A stretch of 21,512 nt of DNA from a virus, in IMG/VR virus record IMGVR_UViG_3300027659_000244, positions 1 through 21,512 of that record. One strand, written 5' to 3'. A program made the position numbers and the translations under genes. This document shows positions 12,832 through 17,413 of the stretch, in pieces; position 1 is the first letter of the stretch; each line of letters begins with the position of its first letter. The notes beneath the pieces were generated by a model that saw nothing but the letters and a program-made list of their open reading frames with translations, ran no database searches and was not told the origin of the DNA.

Positions 12832-13824
12832 TTAAGGTAAGTCTCTCATGCCTTGTGGATTAGAGGCAGAGAACTTACCCCAATTCTTTCCGGCTTGGGC
12901 TTCTGATTTCATGGTGAAGTTCATTCCATCTCGGCCGGTGAGAGATATTGCGAGGCATTCCTGCATGTGCTTCGCTGTTGTGCCGATATCATTATCGAGT
13001 ACCAACGCCAGAAAAGAGTCATGTTTATTGTTAATCGCCGGTAGCGTATTGCTTGGGCGTTCTCTGTTATACCGATTAATCGCGGCGTGAGTGATACAGC
13101 CCACGGTGGATTGAGGAATCCATGAGATGCCTTCCCTGATATAAGAGTCAGTAATAGTTCTCTCGAACCTACGCGGATAGTTAAATAGATTCCGGAGCTC
13201 ACGTTTAGCTCTAATGTTAAATTCAATTTCATCTTGCCATTCTATGATTTCGGGGAACAGTGATGCGAAGAATCCAAGAAAGACTTTGCATTCTTGGAGG
13301 CTGAGGGTAAGAGTGCCGTGACTTTGTTTGAGTGTCTGAAGCTGGAAGGTCCGCTCACGCATCCTATAAGAGGAAGCATGGCAGACCATCTTGCCGATCT
13401 TGTATTCCTTGTCTGAAGATTTGATTGCTTTGTCGAGAGGCTTCCAGTCTGGCTCTTGTCTTAGCTCGCTAGGCGATAGAGATTTCCAATAGCTTGGACT
13501 TTTGCCCGCGAGAGGCCATATGTTTTGCATACTCTCGCAGAAGATATGAAGAGCGATGAAGGTATGGGGCTTGATGCCCACGCTGAAGAGCTCTCTGTAT
13601 TTGCCGGGGCGTGTGAGATAGGCCACGATGAGAGCCTCTGCGCCGCTCTGGTCGCACTGGACGAAGCTCATGCCCGGCGGTGCGATATAGATATCGAGAG
13701 CTTCCTTGTCGGGGTTCTGTAGGTTAGCTCCGTAGTTGCCCAAAAATTGACCACTCGCGAGGCGAAAGCTTCCTGTGCCCGCCACTTTAAGAGAAGTCAG
13801 ACAGTGGATGTGTGGAGTGGGCAT
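12832..13824 (-). CDS. Family A DNA polymerase, C-terminal (palm/fingers) fragment
   Basis: A 330-residue protein holding the polymerase half of a Pol I-type enzyme. Its first residues match the segment just before motif A: TGSFRLAS resembles TGRLSS, and NLQNP is the usual NLQN-P. Motif A is FVQCDQSGAEALIVAYL with catalytic Asp58. Motif B is KMVCHASSY (Lys145 to Tyr153), with His where E. coli Pol I has Phe762 by my alignment. Motif C is KHDSF with His268-Asp269. The exonuclease and thumb are missing here and are encoded by the gene at 15239-16669. That gene ends exactly where this one begins in the usual polymerase order. Both fragments are needed for a full enzyme, so they presumably associate. 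The start ATG is two bases after the upstream stop. All catalytic residues are present, so it is likely functional rather than a pseudogene. Confidence 0.88.
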   Translation of the reverse strand: MPTPHIHCLTSLKVAGTGSFRLASGQFLGNYGANLQNPDKEALDIYIAPPGMSFVQCDQSGAEALIVAYLTRPGKYRELFSVGIKPHTFIALHIFCESMQNIWPLAGKSPSYWKSLSPSELRQEPDWKPLDKAIKSSDKEYKIGKMVCHASSYRMRERTFQLQTLKQSHGTLTLSLQECKVFLGFFASLFPEIIEWQDEIEFNIRAKRELRNLFNYPRRFERTITDSYIREGISWIPQSTVGCITHAAINRYNRERPSNTLPAINNKHDSFLALVLDNDIGTTAKHMQECLAISLTGRDGMNFTMKSEAQAGKNWGKFSASNPQGMRDLP

Positions 13825-15238: not shown

Positions 15239-16669
15239 TTAATATTCCCAAATCCACTGTTGAAATCCGAGCATACCCTTAAGCTTCACCATACGACGCA
15301 TCTCGAAGATCACGTCGATGGCTACGTTCTTAGGGTGTTTGATCTTGATCTTATACAAAGCATCCCCGGCGACAGAGGGTGCGCCTTTGTCTGTTGTCTT
15401 CTCCGGTTTATATCTTAGCTGCTGATGGAGATACTTCACGACCTGATCGGGACTGCCGGGATTGAGGTCGAAGCCCACGAGGATCTTGAGGACGCGATTG
15501 AGCTGTTTGTATCTCTCTTCACACTTTCTTACAATGTACTGTCGCTTGACGGGATCGAAGTGCATTCCGTGGAGGGACATGAAGGCGTAGTCTGCGAGGG
15601 ATCTACTAGCTTGATCGACAGAGTCTTGAAGTCCACGGTCCCTTGAGATGAGGTCAATCTGACCGTAGTAAATTTCTCTGAGGACAATAACGTCTTTAAC
15701 ATTGTAAGCGCGGAGCTGCTCAAATTGTGCTCGATTACGAGGATCAAAGTTCCCTGCTTCATCTTTGTGGAAGGGTCGGTTAGAAAAAAGCGTTGCTTGA
15801 TGGGCCAGAGACTTTTCAGCCTCCGGAAAGATTCGATGGCCTGCGACCATGGTGTCATAGATATCATGGCCGAAAGGAATCTTGTAGAAGGCGGCGAGAA
15901 AGCATAGGTCAAAGAGGGCGTTGTGTATGACGACTCTGCGTTTCTTTAGCTCTCTTATGAACCGTGCAAAGAATACCACACCGACATTGAGATTGCCGCC
16001 CCAATCGTACACAGGAACAGAGTAAACAGGACTCTCTCCACACGCGATGGCCAAGCAGGTAAGGGTGTTGGTCTTGGGGTGAGTCTCAATGTCAAAGAAG
16101 ATCGGACCTTCGTGGTCGAAGACACTTGTGCATTGGTCTGCTCGCTGGCAGTTGTAGACTTGGGGTTCAGGTTGAACTTTTTGGGGGTCATAAGTTAGGA
16201 GTTTCTTGATGTCTTGTGCGAACCAGAAAGAGTAGTTACTGCGCTTCGTTGGGCTTGTGCTTTTGCCGTCGTCTTTGTCGAGCGCATCTTCATTGTCATT
16301 GTCTCCATCCAAAGCATCTTCCATAGCCCATGCGTCAACACAGTCTTGCGGCCAATAGGTTACGATGTATTGGGTTTTGTTTGTTGAGGTATAGACTACG
16401 CCGCGAAAAGCATCTAGGCTTTTATCTTTGGCGAGCGGCAGATAGTCTAGGGCTTTGGCTCCGGCAAAGATGATCTTCTTGATTCCGCTGGGCTTGTTAG
16501 AGTTCTTGAAGAAATCGTCTGCAAAGGTTACAAAAATAGCAGATGGATTATCCAAGTCAAGATTATGATGAGCCAACACAGCACGAACAAAATCTCCGGC
16601 GGGTCCGAGAAGGATGCCGTTGTTTTCTTTATCAAATCGCGAAGGTCCATGAAGTACGAGGGCTATCAT
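15239..16669 (-). CDS. Family A DNA polymerase N-terminal fragment: UDG-like domain, 3'-5' exonuclease, thumb
   Basis: A 476-residue protein with three parts. Residues 1-110 resemble a uracil-DNA-glycosylase fold: ILLGPAGDFVRAVL, then IKKIIFAGAKAL, FRGVVY and VTYWPQ. The family 4 catalytic segment and the usual HPS motif appear changed (HGPS near residue 9; WPQ), so it may not cut uracil. Residues 190-335 are a DnaQ-type exonuclease: FDIETH (193-197), IHNALFD (248-254) and YNVKD (322-326). Residues 340-476 are helical thumb sequence ending EMRRMVKLKGMLGFQQWI, the helix just before polymerase motif A. The protein then stops; the polymerase motifs are in the gene at 12832-13824. UDG-like domains fused to polymerase are known in phages such as SPO1. 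Residues 120-145 are an acidic low-complexity linker. Confidence 0.85.
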   Translation of the reverse strand: MIALVLHGPSRFDKENNGILLGPAGDFVRAVLAHHNLDLDNPSAIFVTFADDFFKNSNKPSGIKKIIFAGAKALDYLPLAKDKSLDAFRGVVYTSTNKTQYIVTYWPQDCVDAWAMEDALDGDNDNEDALDKDDGKSTSPTKRSNYSFWFAQDIKKLLTYDPQKVQPEPQVYNCQRADQCTSVFDHEGPIFFDIETHPKTNTLTCLAIACGESPVYSVPVYDWGGNLNVGVVFFARFIRELKKRRVVIHNALFDLCFLAAFYKIPFGHDIYDTMVAGHRIFPEAEKSLAHQATLFSNRPFHKDEAGNFDPRNRAQFEQLRAYNVKDVIVLREIYYGQIDLISRDRGLQDSVDQASRSLADYAFMSLHGMHFDPVKRQYIVRKCEERYKQLNRVLKILVGFDLNPGSPDQVVKYLHQQLRYKPEKTTDKGAPSVAGDALYKIKIKHPKNVAIDVIFEMRRMVKLKGMLGFQQWIWEY

Positions 16670-16684
16670 TAGGTGGTTAATTTA

Positions 16685-16719
16685 AGAGAAAATAAAAGGC
16701 AGACTTTATCCGGTCTGCC
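16685..16719 (-). terminator. Intrinsic terminator or attenuator upstream of the polymerase
   Basis: On the minus strand GGCAGAC (16719-16713) pairs with GTCTGCC (16704-16698) around an 8-base loop. TTTTATTTTCTC follows, ending 16 bases before the polymerase N-fragment start. It would stop transcripts coming from the recombination genes, or act as an attenuator, so the polymerase may have its own promoter or be read through at a fixed fraction. Confidence 0.72.
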
Positions 16720-16825
16720 AGCGGTGCGATATGTCTAACGTAGTGGTAAGGTGTTCAATGAAGGGAGTTCACAAATCCCAGGTCGCAGGTTCTCTCTGCG
16801 CTCTATTCCTTACCACAAAATCAAA

Positions 16826-16858
16826 CCTCTTAGAAAGTCTCGCAGTCTCTCTAAGAGG
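16826..16858 (-). terminator. Second terminator-like hairpin in the structured region
   Basis: On the minus strand CCTCTTAGA pairs with TCTAAGAGG over 9 bp with a 15-base loop and is followed by TTTGATTTTG. The stem is A/T-mixed and the loop long, so its strength is uncertain. It may instead be one arm of a larger RNA. Confidence 0.4.
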
Positions 16859-16897
16859 CGCATGTCTACTCGATAGTAACCATTCTATCTGATAGAC

Positions 16898-17413
16898 TTA
16901 AAATGCAGACAGGAGAGAGGCAACGCCTTTGACCTGCGAGAAATCAAACTGAGTGTTGTATCGCTTGATGATAGCCTCTCCGTTCTCGTCGCGCTTAGCG
17001 AACTTGAGATCGCGCGAGTTAGAGGGATCGTCGCTGACATACTCGGGCTGAGACTGAACGAGCATATTGAAGGCGTGACCTTGCAGCGAAGACAGAACCT
17101 CAGCCACATCTACGTCGGAGTAATCTTCGGGGAGATTGTCATACAGACCGACAACCTGCAGCGGCGCGGCAAGAAGCTCAAGCGCAGAGTCCACGCCGTT
17201 CTTGTTCTCTAACATGATGTACATATTGCCCTTCGAACCGAGGGTCTTATAGGTTGTACCGTTGGCGATAGCAGTCTCGGGCGCAACGATCTCGCACTCA
17301 CAGACAACCATCTTGAATCCCTTTCCGCTCTGGCGGGTCTCGGTGCGGTGGACAAGAACCTTGTACACGTTGGCGGGGATGAATCCGATCTTGACTTCAG
17401 TACCTTTTTTCAT
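16898..17413 (-). CDS. Putative ssDNA-binding or recombination accessory protein (OB-fold-like)
   Basis: A 171-residue protein without membrane or signal segments. Strand-rich N-terminal half: VKIGFIPANVYKVLVHRTETRQSGKGFKMVVCECEIV, a pattern seen in phage SSB-like or DUF669-type proteins, which bind ssDNA beside Sak-type annealing proteins. The middle has helical LENKNGVDSALELL; the end is a Lys/Asp-rich tail finishing QVKGVASLLSAF, where a hydrophobic or Phe tail may contact partners as in SSBs. Its place directly after the Sak4-like ATPase supports this, but no decisive motif is visible. The leader is a run of AAAC repeats without a Shine-Dalgarno sequence. Confidence 0.45.
   Translation of the reverse strand: MKKGTEVKIGFIPANVYKVLVHRTETRQSGKGFKMVVCECEIVAPETAIANGTTYKTLGSKGNMYIMLENKNGVDSALELLAAPLQVVGLYDNLPEDYSDVDVAEVLSSLQGHAFNMLVQSQPEYVSDDPSNSRDLKFAKRDENGEAIIKRYNTQFDFSQVKGVASLLSAF

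Follow-up and report, generated by a model that had tools for sequence, protein, structure and literature searches.

A pseudoknot between a probable SSB gene and a DNA polymerase gene is common to many phages and very likely represents a new RNA family

Why is a 228-nt gap between two phage genes filled with RNA structure, and what might that structure do? The gap lies in a 21.5-kb IMG/VR virus record (21,512 nt, analysed whole and referred to here as the window), whose recognisable genes beyond about 10.5 kb are on the minus strand. Their order is PD-(D/E)XK exonuclease, Sak4-like, small ORF, 171-aa protein, the gap, a family A DNA polymerase (polA) in two pieces, ATP-dependent ligase, PHROG-3704 protein and primase. 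Since the genes on either side of the gap are both encoded on the minus strand, this strand is expected to be the RNA (Table 1).

The 171-aa protein of the window family is a probable SSB by a weak identification. Eight of ten orthologues match the PHROG 7778 SSB weakly (best E 0.025), two of ten match the PHROG 378 SSB (E 0.055), and the Sak4-like and exonuclease genes lie nearby. The AF2 model of the protein is poor (pLDDT 51), and no relatives were found in PDB or Pfam. The downstream product has a weak match to PF00476. The polymerase is split into two ORFs (12832-13824 and 15239-16669, minus strand) that match adjacent parts of PHROG 17 (565-946 and 963-1232). Between the halves lies the ATP-dependent ligase and, in some relatives only, the PHROG-3704 'ferredoxin' ORF as well; the split is kept in 10/10 relatives checked.

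Table 1. Positions of the features in and around the gap, numbered along the window
Feature	Position	Strand	Description
Upstream gene	16898-17413	-	171 aa; probable SSB, from weak PHROG matches of orthologues and from neighbours
Gap	16670-16897		228 nt, between minus-strand ORFs 16898-17413 and 15239-16669
Hairpin 1	16864-16897	-	Outer 5-bp and inner 5-bp stems; loop with UGGUU
Hairpin 2	16825-16859	-	CCUCUUAGAGAG / CUUUCUAAGAGG; loop with UGCGA
Clade-specific insertion	16743-16816		About 74 nt; 9-bp closing stem 16743-16751/16808-16816 (GTGGTAAGG stem), terminal inverted repeats
Inner small hairpins of insertion	16763-16779, 16784-16800		
Linker UCGCA	16725-16729	-	Complementary to hairpin 2 loop (16840-16844)
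H-type pseudoknot	16698-16724	-	CCG-CU-GGCAGAC-CGG-n-AAA-GUCUGCC; R1 match 51.9 bits
S1	16722-16724 with 16710-16712	-	CCG/CGG
L1	16720-16721	-	CU
S2	16713-16719 with 16698-16704	-	GGCAGAC/GUCUGCC
L3	16705-16709	-	AUAAA
U-rich tail	16688-16697	-	UUUUAUUUUC; directly 3' of pseudoknot; terminator U-tract
Downstream gene	15239-16669	-	N-terminal half of family A DNA polymerase (polA); PHROG 17, E 4.1e-28

The preliminary description of this DNA had held that a spacer would need far less structure than this gap carries, and shuffling bore this out. The folding energy is -72.1 kcal/mol on the minus strand and -72.5 on the plus strand, against shuffle means of -51 and -52 (z = -4.6 on both strands), and 0/200 shuffles were equally stable. 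By sub-block, hairpins 1 and 2 reach z = -4.8, the insertion -3.8 (minus) and -3.5 (plus), and the terminator hairpin by itself -1.8. Two perfect 9-bp helices are present as described (GTGGTAAGG/CCTTACCAC, which closes the insertion, and CCTCTTAGA/TCTAAGAGG in hairpin 2), as is a terminator by the polymerase start, in the form of a terminator-like hairpin and U-tract 28 nt ahead of the polA start on the minus strand. The gap consists of three parts, namely hairpins 1 and 2, an insertion found in the window's clade only, and a pseudoknot element.

We compared the gap across 60 relatives of the polymerase from IMG/VR, of which 37 distinct gaps were aligned. The usual layout is stop codon, hairpin 1, hairpin 2, linker, terminator-like element, U-tract and polA start. 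Hairpins 1 and 2 (together 16825-16897) are kept with compensatory changes in about 55 relatives. Hairpin 1 begins directly 3' of the stop codon of the 171-aa gene; the sequence of its outer stem varies (exchanges C-G/A-U/U-A/G-U and C-G/U-A), and 180/180 cells are paired, with a shuffle maximum of 171/180 by anchored counting. Hairpin 2 is nearly invariant (conservation 0.85-0.97, against 0.54-0.79 at polA four-fold sites), and the exchanges in its upper stem are mostly wobble. A 4-5 bp complement between the linker and the hairpin 2 loop is present in most relatives, which makes this contact a plausible candidate. A kissing interaction between UGGUU in the hairpin 1 loop and AACCA ahead of the polA start can be drawn in the window, but it is not kept in relatives and was rejected.

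In the relative L046, both hairpins and the linker complement are gone, but the pseudoknot is retained. Four others (L010, L011, L033 and L035) have a small ORF (MWTFEAGLAWCCQAN...) between the pseudoknot and polA, apparently a nucleotidyltransferase-like cargo gene (assigned by eye), and the pseudoknot stays beside the SSB-like gene despite this extra ORF. Because it is kept in the first case and stays on the SSB side in the others, we take the pseudoknot to be the core of the region, and we propose that the two hairpins were added at clade level to the 3' UTR of the upstream gene.

The pseudoknot, shared across phages, is the main feature of the gap, and the preliminary description missed it. 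It is of the H type, with two crossing helices, S1 (3 bp) and S2 (7 bp), that both show compensatory changes; L1 has 2 nt and L3 is A-rich. For S1 we ran three scans, in each of which both sides of one pair were forced to differ and all 9 combinations were allowed, and counted matches after removing identical copies. Together the scans gave 30/30 Watson-Crick pairs, where about one third would be expected by chance: 22/22 at pair 1 (15 G-C, 6 A-U and 1 U-A), 4/4 at pair 2 (3 U-A and 1 G-C) and 4/4 at pair 3 (all C-G). Of the six A-U cases, four come from a single flank family, which lowers the count of independent events from 30 to about 26. Support for S1 comes from these scans and from alignment A4; in alignment A7 the outermost S1 column is almost all gaps.

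In S2, four to five pairs have changes on both sides and 99.8-99.9% of cells are paired, a level that 0/500 shuffles reached. The exchanges, each with its complement, are GGCAGGC, GGCAGAG, GGCACCC, GGCATCC, GGCATAC and AGCACAC. The most diverged S2 (AGCACAC/GUGUGCU), at L203:5961-6005 and L206:9149-9193, still accompanies CCG/CGG in S1. A generic pseudoknot descriptor gave 212 distinct matches in the retrieved loci and 0 in reversed sequence, and among more distant relatives identity in the pseudoknot is 0.93 against 0.54-0.68 at four-fold sites. The covariation in relatives that had been suggested as a check was thus found, and it is near-certain that the pseudoknot structure is real. The conserved GGCA and [CA]U are a hint of a specific binding partner, with the invariance of GGCA and [CA]T partly imposed because the retrieval patterns fixed both.

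The pseudoknot is enriched in viruses, and bacterial chromosomes hardly ever carry it. The pattern CCGCTGGCAGACCGG-N(2-5)-AGTCTGCC occurs in at least 119 IMG/VR stretches, where our own estimate from base counts gives about 0.01 expected by chance, and has 9 matches in a far larger bacterial collection. For the most part its carriers bear no relation to the window family. Xanthomonas phage XAJ2 has a related site, a GCG/CGC version that precedes a small gene and a recombinase gene. Among longer records of the window family, 13/13 have the pseudoknot in one copy each, and the phage records examined carry 1-4 copies. A 593-genome bacterial sample gave 6 matches, three of which were seeds. Bacterial genomes with the pseudoknot hold a single copy each, and in two of them (L252 and L255) a Gp2.5-like SSB gene lies upstream of it.

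Rfam 15 returned no family at gathering score in the window and no match at the element in ten other loci, where the sole hit was a tRNA away from it. VqmR was rejected as an identity, since its 21.7 bits stand against a gathering score of 76 and reflect mere terminator resemblance. STAXI (RF01728) is likewise a pseudoknot found close to genes for SSB and other DNA-handling functions, but in Enterobacteriales, where it occurs as a tandem repeat whose loops are often UUCG (PMC2864571). Its model had no match in the window at gathering score, in 16600-16960 at E <= 10, or in the ten other loci. Searches of open papers by sequence and topic found no description of the pseudoknot, which may appear under other names or in other journals. 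The earlier suggestion of a candidate new phage RNA holds, in that the pseudoknot is common to many phages, and it very likely represents a new phage RNA family.

The copies occupy a consistent genomic position. In 132 distinct contexts, the pseudoknot lies in the gene-sense strand between genes, and only three copies fall inside a long sense ORF. An upstream stop codon is found within 200 nt in 122/132 contexts (median 14 nt) and within 25 nt in 89/132, many at 6-10 nt; a downstream start lies within 200 nt in 108/132 (median 30 nt). SSB families lead the annotations of the 46 proteins encoded upstream (PHROG 1192 in 11, 224 in 8, 9002 in 3, 112 in 3 and 7011 in 1, in overlapping categories), followed by major head protein. 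Genes downstream include UvsX/RecA, polA, methyltransferase, exonuclease and helicase. At L134:3553-4407 (minus strand), four pseudoknots lie between five consecutive genes, the first SSB-like, and the gene junctions leave almost no room for promoters; the four copies would be odd for efficient terminators because there is hardly any promoter room.

Past the pseudoknot, positions +3 to +8 (131 contexts) are 47-69% U and 0-8% G, with 68-69% U and 0-5% G at +4 to +6; about two bases, G/A then C, separate S2 from the U-tract. GC-rich contigs show a weaker U enrichment, and the flank upstream of the pseudoknot is A-rich. Like intrinsic (Rho-independent) terminators, the element has a GC-rich stem, a short loop, a U-rich tract and an intergenic site; a GC-rich hairpin followed by a U-tract is present in the window copy and, by composition, in most members.

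We lean towards the view that the element is a cis-acting intercistronic 3'-end module, in which a leaky pseudoknotted intrinsic terminator and an exonuclease block set high SSB and low polymerase. Termination is proposed because a U-tract follows a strong hairpin, and it is taken as leaky and ratio-setting because copies lie between tightly packed genes, often after genes whose products are needed in bulk. RNA polymerase would often halt at the U-tract, so that most transcripts would end just past the SSB gene, and a minority of read-through transcripts would supply the polymerase. The knotted 3' end would bar 3'-5' exonucleases from the SSB message, as expected because 3' hairpins resist such exonucleases (PMC8577784). 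The element would in this way set the ratio of the two products. Termination cannot be the whole function everywhere because in 15/132 contexts the 12 nt past the element contain no more than 2 U. More broadly, the phage pseudoknot family probably forms and protects mRNA ends. Whether it is an undescribed phage-specific pseudoknot, distinct from plain hairpin terminators and shared as a 3'-end module through a conserved partner, we consider evenly balanced; RNA polymerase, an exonuclease or another protein are proposed as candidates for that partner.

Protection of the upstream mRNA by stem-loops between cistrons, as in the puf operon, is cited in PMC8577784. The phage element resembles REP/puf-type stem-loops in lying on the sense strand between operon genes as a proposed shield of the upstream message. 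REP elements are chromosomal palindromes in many copies, whereas the phage element is a viral pseudoknot, with one copy per carrier bacterial genome and few per phage record. It also recalls ToxI-type antitoxins, which are short H-type pseudoknot RNAs met in phages, but it is non-tandem, no ToxN-like gene was noted, and its phage range is wider.

The main rival to the 3'-end module is a protein operator: SSB or some other phage protein would bind the pseudoknot and thereby keep the replication or recombination gene downstream from being translated. SSB binding takes this place because the T4 gene 32 operator shows a phage SSB binding a pseudoknot of similar size: gp32 binds a pseudoknot of about 28 nt in its own leader, plus an unstructured U/A-rich stretch with the RBS (PMC535899). 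Here, too, a phage mRNA pseudoknot of about 27 nt tied to an SSB gene is followed by a U/A-rich stretch and RBS, and UvsX, polA, exonuclease and methyltransferase are among the genes that would be repressed. However, the T4 operator precedes the start codon of the SSB gene, within that gene's own leader, whereas the phage element lies downstream of SSB, capsid and other genes, and no SSB is found among the 25 of 35 downstream families listed. One pseudoknot sequence accompanies SSBs of several unrelated families, as well as capsid genes, and it stays with the upstream gene where an additional ORF has come in between. We therefore consider an operator rather unlikely.

Somewhat less likely again is an ordinary leaky intrinsic terminator whose sequence became common through phage exchange and to which the pseudoknot adds little. 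The hairpin and U-tract of most copies and the A-rich upstream flank agree with it. To our knowledge, ordinary terminators need neither a fixed sequence nor a pseudoknot, whereas the phage element has a fixed sequence, a 3-bp pseudoknot helix and the conserved [CA]U and GGCA; its U-tract begins about 2 nt further on in most copies, and some copies have none. The compensatory changes in S1 across many unrelated contexts are not explained by recent exchange, and a plain terminator would not need them.

The short distance from stop codon to element (6-10 nt in many cases) would suit a translational insulator or ribosome barrier 6-25 nt past the stop, which blocks ribosome drift or stimulates stop-codon readthrough. 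This is improbable, as the in-frame extension past the stop is short (median 14 codons; at least 30 in only 14/89), stop codon usage is mixed, and the window family has its stop at a distance of about 100 nt or more.

The 74-nt insertion is the piece that had been likened to a tRNA. It is carried by the window and ten related contigs (L001-L006, L008, L009, L013 and L054), all of the window's clade, and is absent from the close relatives L007 and L012 and from all others compared; no copy of its core was found elsewhere in IMG/VR outside the clade. We propose that it is a dispensable passenger. The plus-strand pieces AGTGGTAAGG and GGTCGCAGGTTC that had suggested tRNA arms are there, but ARAGORN at default found no tRNA in the region and the Rfam tRNA model gave nothing at E <= 10, so derivation from a tRNA is unsupported. 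Relaxed ARAGORN (-ps85) returned a tRNA-Val CAC-like match, at most a weak hint of a tRNA, of a kind seen in 7-8/1000 shuffles (about 0.7%). Set against this match, the two null tRNA models, a T-loop without conserved bases, the absence of the insertion from most relatives and the lack of convincingly similar DNA in phages and plasmids mostly refute origin of the region from a tRNA gene, as a relic or attachment site, and leave it very improbable.

The covariation support for the pseudoknot is strong enough to merit direct biochemistry. If the 3'-end module is as proposed, viral contigs could be annotated with the element as a simple marker, and its 27 nt could serve as a module to control 3' ends. 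A compact RNA knot common to phages would mark where their most-used messages end, and it would offer a handle on how SSB, capsid and replication genes are tuned in phages with little intergenic room for promoters.
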